Origin: Trachipleistophora hominis
Taxonomy: Eukaryota > Microsporidia > Pleistophoridae
Reading direction: 5' to 3'
Length of the DNA: 20,976 nucleotides
Assembly: GCA_000316135.1 (NCBI GenBank)
Contig: JH993813.1
Coordinates: forward strand, 1-20,976
Part shown: piece after piece, positions 4,023 through 20,767 of the stretch
How positions within the stretch are numbered: position 1 is the first letter of the stretch
Layout of the letters: every line of letters begins with the position of its first letter
Translations under genes and position numbers: made by a program
The notes under the pieces: generated by a model
The model's database searches: none
What the model was told of the DNA's origin: nothing
Seen by the model: only the letters and a program-made list of their open reading frames with translations

Positions 4023-4811
4023 TGCATTATGGTGAATAAGTACATATAATGGACATTAATGATTTAATAGAGAAAGGATGGCATGGACCAGTCTAACTAA
4101 TGGTGTATGTGATAAATAAACCAGAAAGAATCAGACAGTCAATTTTTATCTGTTGTACTCCTAAATGGTAAATTACGGTAGTAGTATTTGATATAGCAAA
4201 CAAGTAAAACATTACTGGGTGAATGGAAAGAAAGTTTTTTACTGATAGAATGAACAATAAAAAATAAAAGCACATGTGATGGTTAACATGATGATGATTT
4301 TAAATCTTTTGTATTGAAACGATGTTTATTATAAAGTATTCTATAGATTAGAAAATAATTGAAAATGGTAAAAAGTGTTATATATTAATTAAAGATCGAC
4401 CTCTCATGACAGACAAGTCTTACATTTTATAAATTTACCTAACAAGGACGGAAATATTTATGTTGGATTGGTGATTACTATGCAATGATATTAAGTAGCA
4501 TGGTGGTTCTGGCTTGTTATTGATAGAGAAGGTTTATATGAAATCATTTCTGGTCATTGAAACGGTAAAGGATATGATAAATTATAACGATGGTATAAAT
4601 TACGAGTAGTTTATTTAAAAACTAAGAAACATAACTTTGTCTTCATTAATAAGGTTATACACGCTATGATTTATTATGATAAACAAATTTGGGAGACACT
4701 GAACGTAAATTGGCACAATGAAGGATATGTTTTGTATTCTCATTTGTATACCGAAATGGATACAGAGTGGTTGAGAAAGATGCTTTTCTTATTGTATAAT
4801 TTATAAAAAAT

Positions 4812-4903
4812 GGCAGCTATAAATATTTTTGATGGTAATAATTCTTGTTGTGATGAAATGTGGAGGTCCTCATCCCTCTGGTCTTTTTACCAAATTAGCT
4901 GCC
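4812..4903. repeat. Short inverted repeat GGCAGCTA / TAGCTGCC
   Basis: GGCAGCTA (4812-4819) and its perfect complement TAGCTGCC (4896-4903) flank 76 nt. A further partial match lies inside (GATGGTAA and TTACCAAA). It could be a foldback or MITE-type remnant or a structured RNA. No target-site duplication was seen. Confidence 0.3.
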
Positions 4904-4939
4904 CTATTCTTTTTAAAGAACAGACTTTCTAAACAATAT

Positions 4940-5054
4940 AAGTGTGATAAATATGCCATGGTAGGTGCTTAGCGCGCCAGGAGAGTCTATTAAAGTGGGT
5001 GGTGATGAGAGGATTTAATTAAATAGACTTCAAAAAAAAAGTGTGATAAATATG
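4940..5054 (+). mobile_element. SINE-like element B: A-tail and 16-bp direct repeats
   Basis: A perfect 16-nt direct repeat, AAGTGTGATAAATATG, is at 4940-4955 and 5039-5054. Between them lies a body of about 76 nt starting CCATGG (4956) and ending in nine A (5032-5040), whose last two A also begin the downstream repeat. Target-site duplication, short body and terminal A-run together are the classic mark of LINE-type target-primed reverse transcription. TTAGCGCGCCAGGAGAGT (4969-4986) matches element A at 17 of 18 positions. Both elements then carry a GTG-rich stretch, TAATTAAA (5016-5023 here) and AGAC/AGAG before the A-run. AGTCTATT (4984-4991) can pair with AATAGACT (5022-5029). No coding capacity. 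Confidence 0.6.
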
Positions 5055-7225
5055 TTTTTTATTCGTATTATCTTCTTTTTTCTGTACATTTTTACGTAGT
5101 TTCTATTGTGTGTAGAGGTTACGAACTAATCTATAATCGGAATTATTTTAATGTTGTTGGTAAAATGCAAATGAACATGGTCCATTAGACGAGAATGTAA
5201 CGGCAGTATGATGCTTTTCTTTTGAAACGAAATCTAAAATATAATTATCGAGAAACGTCCAATACTTATGTTGCAAACCTACATGGGGGTTGTTGAGATG
5301 CACGTTTATATTCAATAGAGCGTTGTGATAGTGGTACAGAGCGTGTACTAAGATAATAAGTATCTCTTGAACTGGTTAATTAGCTTAAGAGTTGCCCTTT
5401 CATTGATACCGATCTGTTATTGGAGGTAATTACTCGATAAATATAGGTTGATTATAACACTAAACATGACTTATTGCTTGTATACGCACATTCTTTGATT
5501 AGTTGGTTCACCATATCAACTTTTATTTAGGTCTACCAGTGCTTGTTTATTTAATATTTCTCGCGATACAAATGTTTTAATATATCGTCTTGTATATCTT
5601 AGCTAATCATTCTCTAACCATTATTTTAATAGTTTTAATGTATGTTATAGTTGACAATATATAATTGTTAGAATTACCATCAATACTTTTAATAACGGTG
5701 TGTTCGGAATTCATTATTGTTTAGAACGATTGAGGGTTATTAATTAACAAGTATTCATAGTGACTGTCATTTTCAATAATAATAATTTTAACTATTCAAC
5801 AGAACGTATTAAAACACATAATTTATTCTGATGACTGCTCGTAGTGTCTGTTACTAAGAATAATTATCGTTTAAGGGCTATTATATCAAATCTTATCTCT
5901 TTTTTGCTAAAAGTGCTTTAATTATTATTTTACATGTCTTATCTTTTAAGTATAGTCTTAGTTTTATGTAAAACATAAACATTAATCGATCAGATAAAGG
6001 CATTACTATACATAATATGATATTGGTTAGAATGGTATAAAGTTAACATTCTTAAAATAAAGATACGTTCTCTATATGTTGTGAATTGAAATGGCTTGCT
6101 CATTTGACTAAATATGCTTTTGGTATCCATTGTTCGGACGATACGAGTAATAAATTGGATATACCAGTATTGATGAAAAGACAACTCACAAGCTGATTGT
6201 TCAATTCGGGAAAAAATCGAAAATATTATTTTATATTTTTGTTAATATTGATAAGTAATATATTGTTATTTAATTTCTAAGTTTCCAAACTCACTCAGTA
6301 ACCATGTACAATCAATATAATTTAGGTAACTATTGCCGTCAGCAGAAAATTAATTTTCTAATCCCAATCGAAGGATATTGATAAACAAGAAATGAATAAA
6401 AACGATCAAATTTAAGATGTTTAGAGAAATTATAAGCCAAACACACACTAATTTAAACCATCCGTTTTATAAATGGAATAGCGCAGCTAGTATACAAAAA
6501 TTAACTACGTTTAATAAACAAATAAATGATGTAATCGGTTTTAAAATTAAAAGTTAAAGGATTATTATCTCTAGTAGATATTCAAAATATGGCACAACAA
6601 TCGTGCTTGCTTTAATTAACTATGTTTTAGAATTAATTGAGGAAAAGGAATATTGACGCCAAAATATATTCTTGTATCAATATTAAAAAATATTTCTTTG
6701 CTTAGAAAAGAGCAGTTGTGAACAAGCGATATGTTATTATTTATAATAACACATGTTAATCCACATTTTCAACTTTTAAAAAAATTCATACAATATACCA
6801 TAGTCATTAATTTATTTTAACTTGTTTCCATGTCTATATCATAAAATTTTTAGTCAAATTGAAGTATTATTTCGTTGATATAGTCCCCTGGAACATTATT
6901 TATGGTTTTATATTAAAGTATTTTTATTCGATTTTCGACTATTCAAGCAAAAAATTATATTGAAATAATTTGCTTTATTAAAATCAATTTTAGTTCATAT
7001 CTAAATTTTTATTATAGCTTGATCTGTTATACAAGTTAAAGTAAGCATTCAACTTAGGAATGTGCATTTGTATTGATCGAATATGAGAAGTAGCAAACTG
7101 ATATGCAATACATTAGACCACCACATTATAACATCAAGTGAAAACTGGATTGATACACTGTAAGTGACCGTACGCTATATAATATTTTTTAAGCTAAAAT
7201 TAAAACATTAATAAGTTTTATTCAA

Positions 7226-12519: not shown

Positions 12520-13593
12520 TTAATAAAGTAACCACTTGGCGGCCATACTAACCAAATAAATCATTCCTATTGTCCAAACCGTGAAGTAAAGCAGGTACAG
12601 CAAATTTCGATGTCTTATTAATGTGATCTCAATAAAATCGTAGTTTCCTGATTTTATCTTAGCGAACTTTTTAGTAAAATCGTTCACATCTTCAATCGAT
12701 TTAAATAATTGGCAGCTTTGCTTGTACTTCTCGATCAGTATTTCCTTCTTTTCGAATATTTCGTAGAGCCAGTCCTTAGAGGTGACATTATTCATAAAAT
12801 CTACAAGAAAGAAAAATCCTATTTTACCAACGTTGCGGAAGTACACGTCTGTGTACGTGAATGTTTTTTGAGGATACTGGTAGTATGGCCTTACGAATAG
12901 CGTCACGTCTATAATACCCTCCATGGTATCCTTTAACTCGTTATATATCATGTTTGTTCCGGATGTACGTGGTATCAATACATTCTGAGGCGAAAAACTG
13001 GTATCTCTCAACTTAACATTCATTTTCTGTGAGTAAGTTATTGATTTGCTGTGCGTACTCGGGACTAAAATTGTTCCCTCGGGAAAAATTAAGAAAAACA
13101 ACTTACTTTTCGTGTGTAAATAATTCAACGATTTCTTTAGCGTATTCAAATCCTCGCTCCAGCTCCTTTTGATAAATACGTAACCGAACGCTTTCATGGC
13201 ACTTCCAAATATTGGTATCTGTGCGAGCGAGCTCTTCACGAGTATACACACATCCCTGTACATGTCGAATTTCTGGAGGACTATCAATATTATTAGCCAA
13301 TCATAGTTTGTTTGATGATTAGATATTACTAAACAGCGCTTTTTCTGCAGTATTTGCTTGTTATAGGCCACGTAAACAGGGTGTGGGAAAAAAATACACC
13401 CGTAAGCGATTGTCAAATGGAGCCATTCACATTTCTGCCATGCTACAATTTTCTGACGAATACCTGGAAAAGGTAGTATCAGCTTCAGAAAACCACAGAC
13501 TACAAATCCAACTGTTACACTGGTTATATAAACTATCGATGCAAGTGGAATAACAACATATTTTTTTAGAGCGTTGAAAAGTAGCATCGTCAT
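12520..13593 (-). CDS. LCLAT1/AGPAT-like acyltransferase, copy 1
   Basis: This 357-residue membrane enzyme of the PlsC superfamily would move an acyl chain from acyl-CoA to a lysophospholipid such as lysophosphatidic acid, at the ER. All four blocks are present: NHQTNYD (His93, Asp98) for catalysis, GYVFIKRSW (137-145), FPEGT (170-174), and LIPR (206-209). Hydrophobic segments at about 12-40 and 327-350 suggest anchors at both ends. Length and C-terminal extension fit the LCLAT1/AGPAT3-5 branch better than the shorter classical AGPATs. The ATG at 13593 is chosen because a GGGGGTCC motif sits a few bases upstream (13597-13604). It is paralogous to the 19712 gene: the segment FFPHPVYVAYNK and the NH-x4-D block are nearly shared. 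Substrate is not readable from sequence. Confidence 0.88.
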   Translation of the reverse strand: MTMLLFNALKKYVVIPLASIVYITSVTVGFVVCGFLKLILPFPGIRQKIVAWQKCEWLHLTIAYGCIFFPHPVYVAYNKQILQKKRCLVISNHQTNYDWLIILIVLQKFDMYRDVCILVKSSLAQIPIFGSAMKAFGYVFIKRSWSEDLNTLKKSLNYLHTKSKLFFLIFPEGTILVPSTHSKSITYSQKMNVKLRDTSFSPQNVLIPRTSGTNMIYNELKDTMEGIIDVTLFVRPYYQYPQKTFTYTDVYFRNVGKIGFFFLVDFMNNVTSKDWLYEIFEKKEILIEKYKQSCQLFKSIEDVNDFTKKFAKIKSGNYDFIEITLIRHRNLLYLLYFTVWTIGMIYLVSMAAKWLLY

Positions 13594-14754: not shown

Positions 14755-17700
14755 ATGTACGAAGAATTCAGAGATGGCAGTATTATATCATTGCAGCTTC
14801 ATAATTTTCAGACCTATTCTGACGTTAAGTTTGATTTTCATCCAAGACTTAATTTTATTGCAGGTCCAAACGGTTCCGGAAAAAGTACCATAGCAAATGC
14901 CATAGCTTTCATTTTTGGAGGGAGCACGAAGGTGCTAAGTAAAGCAAAAGATCTCATGGACTTCATAAAATTTGACACGAACGACTCGTACATCGAGATA
15001 AAAATAAAATACACGGGTAAAGTTACAACGATACGGCGGGCACTAGTTCCCCTGAAAAACAGCTCATTATGGTTTCTCAATGGCTGTTCAACGCCATATA
15101 TAAAGATACAGCAAATGTATAATGAGCTAAAGATTAACATCAATAATATTTGTAATTACCTGCCACAAGAGAAAGTGGCAGAATTTACGCGATTCTCTCC
15201 CGAAGAGTTATTTAGAACGTTTATCGAGACGTATCACGAGCAGAATATCGTTGACAAAATAAATACGCTGATAGATATGGAAGGCTTCTACGACAGTCTG
15301 TCGGGAGATCTCGAGAAAATATTGTGCAATAAAATGGCTATTGAGAAAGTTATAAGCGGCATGTCCAGAGACATCGAAAAGGTAAAGGAAAAGAAGAGGC
15401 GGAGAAAAGGATAGAATTAATGAACAGCAAGAAGAAATGGTTGATTTACGAATTGGAGAAGAAGGAATATCTCATATTGAAAGCGAACTCAGTTAAAATA
15501 GAAGGAGAGATAAAAACGATACAGAAAGAAATGAGCGAGTATGATAATAAAATCAAAAGCAGCTCCGATAGTAAAGAGGCTAAGGATCACGCAAGAAAAT
15601 TGGCTGATATTAAACAAAATAACGTTGCTCTGGAGAGATTTGCTGAGAGAATTGAGAATTACATGCACGAGAAAGAAAAGATTAAGGTGGACCTCAAGTC
15701 GAATGAAAAGAAAAAAGAATGTGCACTGGAAAAAGTAGATGCGTTAGAAATGGAGAGACGCAACAACATAGAAAAGTTGGAAGGTTTTAAATTGCCTAGT
15801 AAGCCTTCAATGAGCGTTAATAAAGATTTTGATAAGATGGAGCAAGAAATGATGGAATTAAAGCAAGAGCTGGCAGAACTGTACAAGCAAGGATGTAAGA
15901 TTTCAAGTGAAGTAGAGGAATTGACCAGAAAGAAGAATCTCATCGTTGATATAGAACTAAGGAGACTTGAAATACTGAAAAATTACCACAAGGACACGTA
16001 TACAGCCGTGATGTGGTTGAGAAATAACAAGGATAAATTCCGAGATGAAATTATTGAGCCATGTATACTGAGCCTGTCGCTCAAAAACGCAAAATTTATA
16101 AACGAAATCGAGGGATTTCTTTCTTATCAGGCGTTAACATCATTTATCTGTAAAGATTTTCGTGACTTTGAATTGCTTATGAAAACGCTAAAAGACAAGA
16201 TGAAACTGGCCATAAACGCGTTGAATACAATTTCAAGGTTGATAAGGCCCCGTACACAAGAGAGTATATCAGAACGCTAGGGGTTTGACGGGTATCTTAT
16301 CGATTACGTGGATGATAGAAAAGAGGTTCTTGATTTCTTGTCGGCATTGCTCGATTTTTCGAGCATTCCTGTCACGAAAAACGACGTAGATGAAGTATCG
16401 ATCTTTAAAAAGACCAGTTTTGTGAAGATGGCCGTGAATAACACGTATCTGGCGATAAAGAAGAACAAGTATGATCACCGGGATTTTACAATAATAGAGA
16501 ATAAACTTCGGAAGGTGAACCTGTTTAACAAATTTACACCACACGATGAATTGGCCACTTTGGAAAAAAAATTAGAAGAAATTGAAGATAAGCGTGTTAG
16601 GAATCAGAGCGTGTATAAGGAGAAGCTGGAGAATGTTGAGAAATTAAAATCGTGTTTTCAGAAGATTCAGGCAACTAGAGATGAGGAAAAAAGAAAAATA
16701 TACGAGTATGAGCGAAAAGTGGCGCATAGAGAAAGACTCATCGATGAAATTAAGGACTTAGAGATTCAGCTGGAGAGGAGTAAAAGATCTTAGCGTGTTT
16801 GATACGCGACAAGTGCAGTTAAATGATATGATCTGTGATGTCGATGCAAAAATTAGGGCCGAGTTTGAAGACCTGAAATCGTTCACGACAGACACAGAAA
16901 TCATTTTTTTCAAACGGTAAAAGAAACGATGGCGATACAGGAGAAGTTGCGCTCGTTTATGGATGAAATAAGGAACTTGAAAATAAGGTTAGAGCTAGAC
17001 AAACACAAAATTGAGGAGCTCAACGTGCAAAAAGCTTTTCTTGACAAAGAAAGAGAAAATAAGAAAAGAAAAATTAGCAAAATCAAGACTGAGCTGGTGA
17101 AGTACACGACGGAACAGATGTCCTATGTCACGGAATTGCCGGAGGACATTGAATCGCTGGAGAAGCAAATTGCCTCGGAGCTAGCAAAGATAACATTTCT
17201 GAACGCGGACAAAAAGGTGCTTAAAGATTACAAGGAAAAAGAAAAGCTGCTGAACGATTTTCATCTAAAAGAGCTTGAAATGGAAAATAAGCGGAAGGTT
17301 TCTAATCAGGACATAAACAACCTCAGAGAAGACCTCATTAATAGTTTGAATGAGAAAGTGGCGGTTGTTAACGATAACTTTGCAAATTTTTTTCAGAAAC
17401 TGAGTTTTGATGGCAAAGTAGAGCTTGAAACAGAAAATATGAAAGCGTCTAAGTGGAAATTGAACATTCTTGTAAGATTTAGAAAGGAGGAGCAGATGCA
17501 ACAGCTGTGCTCATACATACAAAGCGGGGGTGAGCGCAGCGTTTCTACAATAATATTCCTTCTTTCACTTCTTGAGGCAACGCCTGCGCCGTTTCGGCTA
17601 GTTGATGAGATTAACCAGGGAATGGACTCTTACAACGAAAGAATCGTGCACAACCTCCTTGTCGATTTGATCAGGAATAAAAACTCGCCGCAGTTCTTCA

Positions 17701-17828
17701 TTGTAACACCGAAATTGGTTGACAATCTCAACTTTAATGACAGCATGCGCGTATTTATCATATATGCGGGAGAATTTGGTCGGATAGGAAACAAATTTGA
17801 AGAATGCAAGACCGCACTAATGCAATGA
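14755..17828 (+). CDS. SMC5: SMC5, Smc5/6 complex ATPase, with five one-base frame breaks
   Basis: This encodes Smc5, the nuclear ATPase that pairs with Smc6 in recombination and replication repair. Walker A GPNGSGKST is at residues 37-45. A coiled coil leads to a hinge (about 15990-16250) beginning with the SMC5-like VMWLRNNKDKF. A second coiled coil leads to the signature QSGGERSVST (about 17519-17548) and Walker B LVDEINQGMD (about 17598-17627). Five single-base shifts break it: missing A in 15389-15392, missing T near 16239-16240, extra G in 16280-16283, extra A in 16782-16785, missing T in 16904-16910. Allowing for them, the span is 1025 codons including the stop, close to the usual 1050-1100. 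All breaks fall in mononucleotide runs and both ATPase halves are preserved, so base-calling error is likelier than decay. Smc6 is not in the window. AATAAA lies about 70 nt after the stop. Confidence 0.9.
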
Positions 17829-19711: not shown

Positions 19712-20767
19712 ATGTTATGGACCAAAATATACTGCTTCGCCAAAATCTGCTCAATCGCGATTTTCTACTTTACTCTGTCGTTCTACGTCGGTACTCTCCT
19801 GTTATTGATAAGGCTTGTATTAAGACCGTTCAAAAATGCAAGATCCCGCTTTACCAAAATCATAAAAGGATACTGGTTGAGTCTGACTGCATCGGTCTGC
19901 TACTTTTATTTCCCACATCCTATTTACGTGGCTTACAACAAGGAAATCTTGAAGAAAAAAAGGTGCCTGATCGTATCGAATCATTTAACAAATTTAGATT
20001 GGATCTTTATAGTCGTTATACTGAACGAATTGGGGATGTATGAGGAATTATGTATAATTATGAAATACAGTCTATCAAAACTGCCCATTTACGGATACGG
20101 AATGAAATGCTTTGACTACATTTTTTTGAAAAGACGATGGCAGGAAGACATACATATTCTGTCACAGGGCCTAGAAAAAATGAAGAAAAAGGAAAATTTT
20201 TATCTGCTTTTCTTCCCAGAAGGAACAATATTGGACTCGGAAACATATGAAAAGTCGCAAAAATACGGAAGAGACCTTAATATGACCATTGACGGTAGGT
20301 TATATAACCCTCAATTCTGTTTAATACCACGAGTTAAAGGTATTAACAAAATATACGAGGTTTTGCAGGAAGAAATAGACGGTGTTATTGACATAACACT
20401 TTTTATAACACCATACAAAAGATACTTGGCGGAATATTACGATTATTGCGACGTACTTTTTAACTTGCAGCGAATACCTCGTTTTTACATTGTGCTTGAC
20501 GAGTACAAGGGAAAAATGAACGGGGAATGGCTTCACAGGATATTTGATAAAAAAGATAAATGTCTGAGAGGTGTTGTGACGAGAAGTACGAGTGTTGAGA
20601 ACATAACATGCTTGGCAGATTTTGCAAAACTTTTTGGTGGTTTATACCAAAAAAAGTTTAATTATTTTGGTAAGACAATGTGGTCAAATAATTTCTATCT
20701 GAATCTCTGTGCCTTTTTTATAATTTGCGCGTCTAATATTTATTTGCTGAAGAAACTGTTCTTTTAA
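19712..20767 (+). CDS. LCLAT1/AGPAT-like acyltransferase, copy 2
   Basis: This intact 351-residue paralogue of the 12520-13593 gene has the same architecture. A hydrophobic N-terminal segment (about 8-36) is followed by FPHPIYVAYNKEI and the catalytic NHLTNLD (His91, Asp96). Then come DYIFLKRRW (135-143), FPEGT (168-172), LIPR (204-207) and a C-terminal hydrophobic anchor (about 325-348). It should acylate a lysophospholipid, such as lysophosphatidic acid or a lysocardiolipin-like substrate, at the ER; the acceptor cannot be told from sequence. The two copies face away from the SMC5-eL42 block in opposite orientations, about 6 kb apart. They are clearly diverged, so this is an old duplication, and both keep every catalytic residue. 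Confidence 0.88.
   Translation: MLWTKIYCFAKICSIAIFYFTLSFYVGTLLLLIRLVLRPFKNARSRFTKIIKGYWLSLTASVCYFYFPHPIYVAYNKEILKKKRCLIVSNHLTNLDWIFIVVILNELGMYEELCIIMKYSLSKLPIYGYGMKCFDYIFLKRRWQEDIHILSQGLEKMKKKENFYLLFFPEGTILDSETYEKSQKYGRDLNMTIDGRLYNPQFCLIPRVKGINKIYEVLQEEIDGVIDITLFITPYKRYLAEYYDYCDVLFNLQRIPRFYIVLDEYKGKMNGEWLHRIFDKKDKCLRGVVTRSTSVENITCLADFAKLFGGLYQKKFNYFGKTMWSNNFYLNLCAFFIICASNIYLLKKLFF

Follow-up and report, generated by a model that had tools for sequence, protein, structure and literature searches.

A short, SINE-like retroposon family in Trachipleistophora hominis that probably represents a free-standing LINE 3' UTR

Microsporidia are textbook examples of genome reduction. Short non-coding retroposons related to autonomous partners are known from trypanosomatids where, according to PMC2323293, ingi without its central part gave RIME and a 3' deletion of L1Tc produced NARTc; the first 78-79 nt of each are common with those of its partner. 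For T. hominis, PMC3486916 reports non-LTR retrotransposons whose coding sequences are frameshifted and which were judged to be no longer active, and PMC4202319 gives counts for the non-LTR retrotransposon families; the term SINE does not occur in the main text of either paper. The initial annotation of the DNA analyzed here stated that SINEs are essentially undescribed in microsporidia, which is nearly right. No described microsporidian SINE family was found in the literature searched, which consisted mostly of papers outside subscription, and the sole mention there is a table entry for Nosema bombycis, in which 28,669 bp (0.18%) are listed as 'SINE' and for which the available text of that source describes no family (PMC3614468).

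The window, that is, the whole stretch of 20,976 nt that was analyzed, is contig C9 of the T. hominis genome assembly used for the searches (5.5 Mb in 119 contigs). It contains a small non-coding insert that we interpret, with a probability of roughly 0.8, as a 5'-truncated retroposon copy of recent origin; the short, non-coding retroposon would be a stand-alone LINE 3' UTR mobilised in trans by a LINE. The parts of the insert are as follows.

4940-4955, no strand assigned: target-site duplication, upstream copy, 16 bp, AAGTGTGATAAATATG; the final G may be the element's own
4956-5031, + strand: element body, 76 nt, subfamily a, 5'-truncated, family positions about 23 to 100
4964-4978, + strand: hairpin 2 (4964-4968 with 4974-4978), with predicted counterparts in LINE 3' UTRs and the SINE clade
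4984-5029, + strand: long 3' stem (4984-4991 with 5022-5029), predicted for LINE 3' UTRs and the SINE clade as well
5032-5040, + strand: A9 tail, of which the final two A's are also the first bases of the downstream repeat
5039-5054, no strand assigned: target-site duplication, downstream copy, 16 bp, AAGTGTGATAAATATG, identical to the upstream copy at 16/16 positions

This anatomy agrees with the initial annotation, which had described a perfect 16-bp duplication around a 76-nt body and an A9 run joined to the downstream repeat; the two repeats are identical throughout, and two A's belong to both run and repeat. The lack of coding capacity noted there extends to the family, which has no long reading frame. 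The possible stem between 4984-4991 and 5022-5029 also held up: its arms are perfectly complementary, it is part of the predicted fold, and it is kept across the family. Taken alone, the fold of the window insert is not unusual (z -1.61; 13/200 shuffles were equally good). The window repeat has a score of 16, and the best score among 4160 mismatched flank pairs, in each of which the left flank of one of 65 stand-alone copies was compared with the right flank of another, was 12. Full-length copies begin farther upstream, so that the window copy is without the first 22-23 nt of the full-length unit. Its nearest relative, a longer copy on C20, is 99% identical. A search of the same genome for a paralogous empty site corresponding to this copy found none; both flanks are single-copy except that 109 nt of the downstream one have a match of 75%.

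Elsewhere in the window, the best named matches of the predicted proteins are largely microsporidian, and the topoisomerase III is 73% identical to that of Vavraia culicis, so the microsporidian source implied by the initial annotation was right. An SMC-like protein at 14755-17828 (+), with matches to SMC_N and to an SMC tail, is split over four frames (219, 286, 121 and 299 aa), and this gene may be a pseudogene or may reflect assembly errors. Two paralogous acyltransferases that are 36% identical lie in opposite orientation on either side of the SMC-like region, at 12520-13593 (-) and 19712-20767 (+).

When used as a query, the window insert had 8 matches (E <= 0.001) within the genome it comes from. 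A longer copy matched 15 places, a subfamily b copy at least 41, a subfamily c copy at least 42 and the LINE 3' end at least 48; the match lists from different queries overlap one another. The other genomic copies for which the initial annotation had proposed a search were found with each of the four element queries. A profile derived from the first 15 copies was run over the fetched loci, and its matches, merged by position, comprised at least 94 elements. These were sorted by the DNA similarity of their upstream sequence to the LINE C-terminus, most of the short fetched loci exposing only 86-95 nt for this purpose, into 65 stand-alone and 29 LINE-linked copies. Sixteen further places found with the subfamily c query were all stand-alone, giving totals of at least 81 stand-alone and at least 29 LINE-linked copies. 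Three of the 30 loci fetched for the LINE 3' end query (L042, L049 and L056) had no profile match and lie outside these counts. A full unit measures about 100 nt plus an A-run. At the DNA level, no LINE coding sequence was found upstream of the 81 stand-alone copies. At the protein level, a LINE match was present in 29/29 LINE-linked rows and in 2/81 stand-alone ones; one of these two matches, at a copy adjacent to a LINE, is in the opposite orientation, and the second (C4:20624) is weak (26 aa upstream, E 0.004). The copy at C45:31904, sorted as stand-alone, is located about 1.2 kb downstream of a same-strand piece of LINE reverse transcriptase (RT), and that LINE may have this copy as its 3' UTR. 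One exact pattern of the element gave 0 matches among IMG/VR sequences.

The initial annotation expected each copy to end in an A-run and to have its own flanking repeat. The first expectation holds for most stand-alone copies (A5 or longer in 59/65) and the second for about half of them: the own-flank repeat score exceeded the 99th percentile of the 4160 mismatched pairs in 34/65, including 11 above the maximum, and 31/65 had no duplication above that level. Among the LINE-linked rows, which served as a control because no duplication is expected at that place, 0/29 exceeded it. The clear duplications vary in length from about 9 to 22 bp. Flanks that align past the proposed ends, which had been named as an argument against a retroposon, were not seen around stand-alone copies with the exception of three upstream pairs (downstream pairs, 0); a few copies may therefore be segmental duplicates. 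A rougher empty-site comparison is provided by an older copy nested in a LINE on C111, where paralogous LINEs run on without the copy; its duplication is too diverged to define. In some copies (L060, L087, L088, L104, L043 and L085) a T run directly precedes the A-run, and T5 followed by A5 occurs in 3/65 stand-alone and 4/29 LINE-linked copies.

The unit is homologous to LINE 3' UTRs over its whole length, from the first to the last position (62-72% in near-full-length alignments). Within the defined part of the LINE loci, it aligned only at 3' UTRs and at nested copies. In a tree of 82 near-full-length copies drawn from the 94, subfamilies a and b formed a clade of 45 stand-alone copies with 0 LINE-linked members (bootstrap/SH-aLRT 78/94), and copies of this clade are at most 75% identical to any examined LINE-linked 3' UTR. 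After 14 of the 16 later (c) copies were joined to give 96 rows, the LINE-free side comprised 47 rows with mixed support of 87/17; with this support and about 105 columns, the LINE-free split is moderately supported. In subfamily c, the identity between stand-alone copies and LINE-linked 3' UTRs reaches 97%; the two are intermixed on the tree, with at least 16 changes of state, and the stand-alone copies could be derived directly from LINE mRNA. Nearest-neighbour identity is 0.882 for stand-alone and 0.879 for LINE-linked copies, so neither set is clearly younger.

The three hairpins that RNAalifold predicted from the 37 rows of the LINE clade are also those predicted from the 45 rows of the SINE clade. 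Over all 82 rows the paired fraction was 0.898 and fell to 0.25-0.52 when the partners were slid, and 0/300 column shuffles matched either the paired fraction or the number of double changes; these tests used the same rows from which the structure came and are biased in its favour. For the SINE clade alone, 0 and 1 of 300 shuffles matched the paired fraction and the double changes, respectively. The corresponding numbers for the LINE clade alone were 87 and 163 of 300, and the structure is thus without independent support in that clade.

The LINE RT is represented in this genome by RVT_1 pieces on C111, C45, C12, C21 and C107, with R2 (E 3.7e-11) and LINE-1 ORF2 (E 2.6e-8) as solved relatives. 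No intact LINE RT was found in this assembly: every match is interrupted or short, most have stops, and the longest open frame at any match is 152 aa. The 99% identity of the window and C20 copies, together with perfect duplications, suggests that a LINE was working recently or that a working one is missing from the assembly. At four LINE ends (L033 at C107:9632, L039 at C95:32601, L047 at C45:56032 and L061 at C63:11367) a second, 5'-shortened unit follows the LINE 3' UTR and A-run head to tail; three of these four units begin at family positions 20-24. One repeated protein family ends in LDKETYQIK, and in three cases, at L025/L030 (C111), L028 (C107) and L029 (C12), a LINE copy is found a few hundred bases downstream of one of its members. 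The LINE-bearing loci of C111 and C107 are 94% identical duplicates, and the proximity of LINEs to this protein family may reflect duplication or an insertion preference. A different, Ty3/gypsy-looking RT with interrupted frames, judged from the reading frames, is present at L024 (C108) and L027 (C16).

The 5' ends of the copies bear directly on whether the stand-alone elements are ordinary 5'-truncated LINE copies, templated by LINE mRNA and ended by frequent fall-off at the start of the 3' UTR, perhaps at hairpin 1 or near a ribosome stalled at the stop codon. Such an origin would agree with the finding that the whole unit is LINE 3' UTR and with the intermixing of c-type stand-alone copies, up to 97% identical, with LINE-linked ones. 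A second recurrent 5' end, internal to the unit, also looks like a stop imposed by structure: positions 20-24, within the 3' arm of predicted hairpin 1, account for 5 of the 14 internal ends, that of the window copy among them (P about 3e-4, for a window picked after viewing the data and with second tandem units counted in), which suggests that reverse transcription stops at structure. Set against this is a fixed outer boundary. Stand-alone copies start at family positions 1-3 in 55/65 cases, and at query positions 1-3 in 14/16 of the later copies; since the profile cannot reach beyond position 1, the real boundary was read from the duplications, which end at most 3 nt from the element start in 29 of the 34 clear cases. 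In the LINEs this preferred 5' end corresponds to about 6 nt past the stop codon. The LINE-linked copies, in contrast, have LINE homology extending 68 to at least 1635 nt farther upstream, with scattered end points (n=25, four second tandem units left out), and the scattered truncation points of 5'-truncated LINEs are not the pattern of the stand-alone copies. If ends fell at the density of the LINE-linked set, which has 9 copies within 200 nt of the 3' UTR, at least 10 of them would share a 7-nt window with P about 2e-12. Simple truncation also fits poorly with a 45-copy a/b clade that has no LINE-linked member and no more than 75% identity to the examined LINE-linked 3' UTRs, and we consider it unlikely as the source of the family.

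A classical Pol III SINE, in which a tRNA, 5S or 7SL head has diverged beyond recognition and the tail is common with a LINE, would likewise have a discrete length, an A-run, duplications and a LINE-shared 3' end. The family is indeed short, dispersed and multicopy, with an A-rich tail, its own duplications and a 3' end common with the genome's LINE. The element is homologous to the LINE from position 1 onward, though, which leaves no room for a separate head, and neither a tRNA/5S/7SL head nor an internal Pol III promoter was found in the element by Rfam (the window and the loci of four copies), ARAGORN (15 loci) or box scans. Box A patterns occurred in 2/65 copies (shuffled mean 4.3) and box B patterns in 2/65 (shuffled mean 1.3), and the same patterns matched a tRNA gene of the same genome. 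The Rfam matches were one chance match in the window, far below its cut-off; in the loci of the four copies, only a chance microRNA match and a tRNA lying about 1 kb away from one copy; and two chance matches in four LINE loci. An inverted-repeat hairpin at L021:2388-2496 gave a chance-level microRNA match on both strands. An origin of the element from a known RNA was rejected, being without support from Rfam or ARAGORN, and the Rfam runs gave no support for an HDV-like or hammerhead ribozyme at the 5' end. We therefore regard a classical SINE with an unrecognizable head as very improbable. Least credible of all are three other origins of the insert: direct repeats that arose by chance, the scar of a tandem duplication, and a DNA element of the MITE kind. 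Its very short length would suit such an origin, but the copies are dispersed in unrelated flanks, 59/65 have A5 or more, no inverted repeat pair is present within 4700-5300, and the duplications are not of fixed length.

The evidence thus supports the non-autonomous, LINE-mobilised retroposon suggested by the initial annotation: the copies are numerous, have A-runs and duplications of their own, include truncated members and are homologous to a LINE 3' UTR. Like LINE-derived non-autonomous retroposons, the family derives from an autonomous element and has no coding sequence. With no Pol III-type head found, we do not file it as a classical SINE, although it works like one; from sequence comparison, the best reading is a headless, SINE-like family in which the entire element appears to be LINE 3'-UTR sequence. 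By this reading, a discrete RNA intermediate of roughly 100 nt with a fixed 5' end would be a template for the LINE reverse transcriptase, which would recognise in it the 3' end of the LINE itself. Target-primed reverse transcription at a nick in the target DNA would then insert a copy, giving duplications of variable length. No promoter was found, so transcription of the element from its own sequence is hypothetical. A bolder proposal, to which we give somewhat less than even odds, is that the LINE 3' UTR is itself mobile, a three-hairpin RNA of ~100 nt serving both as RT recognition site and as free-standing retroposon. A signal of its own located just beyond the stop codon, for initiation or for RNA processing, would set its 5' end; LINEs would repeatedly spawn headless SINEs (subfamily c), some of which became self-propagating lineages (a and b).

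A SINE-like family consisting only of a LINE 3' UTR would, if confirmed, show the minimal sequence needed to parasitise a LINE: a SINE at its bare minimum, free of any Pol III head, in a eukaryotic group whose reduction is among the most extreme. A small microsporidian genome thus appears to host a parasite of a parasite. The dozens of natural variants would be a resource for determining what a LINE reverse transcriptase recognises, and the insertions could be used as markers to distinguish strains.

In comparison with described systems, the T. hominis family resembles the trypanosomatid RIME, NARTc and SIDER elements, as presented in PMC2323293, in being short and non-coding, in deriving from an autonomous retroposon rather than from tRNA, 5S or 7SL RNA, and in having an A-rich tail and duplications. 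RIME and NARTc kept the 5' 78-79 nt of their partners, whereas the T. hominis element, as far as seen, retains only the 3' UTR. The SINEs EhSINE1 and EhSINE2 of Entamoeba histolytica also come from a parasitic protist and have target-site duplications, but at about 0.55-0.7 kb they are longer than the T. hominis element of about 0.1 kb (PMC3716655). AfuSINE2-1a of Aspergillus fumigatus, as described in PMC5063351, also has a 3' end that resembles a LINE 3' UTR and duplications (4-14 bp in that case), and is likewise present in few copies in a fungal genome; the head of AfuSINE2 is tRNA-related and includes degenerate A and B boxes, whereas the T. hominis element, in which no head was found, appears to be LINE 3' UTR from end to end.
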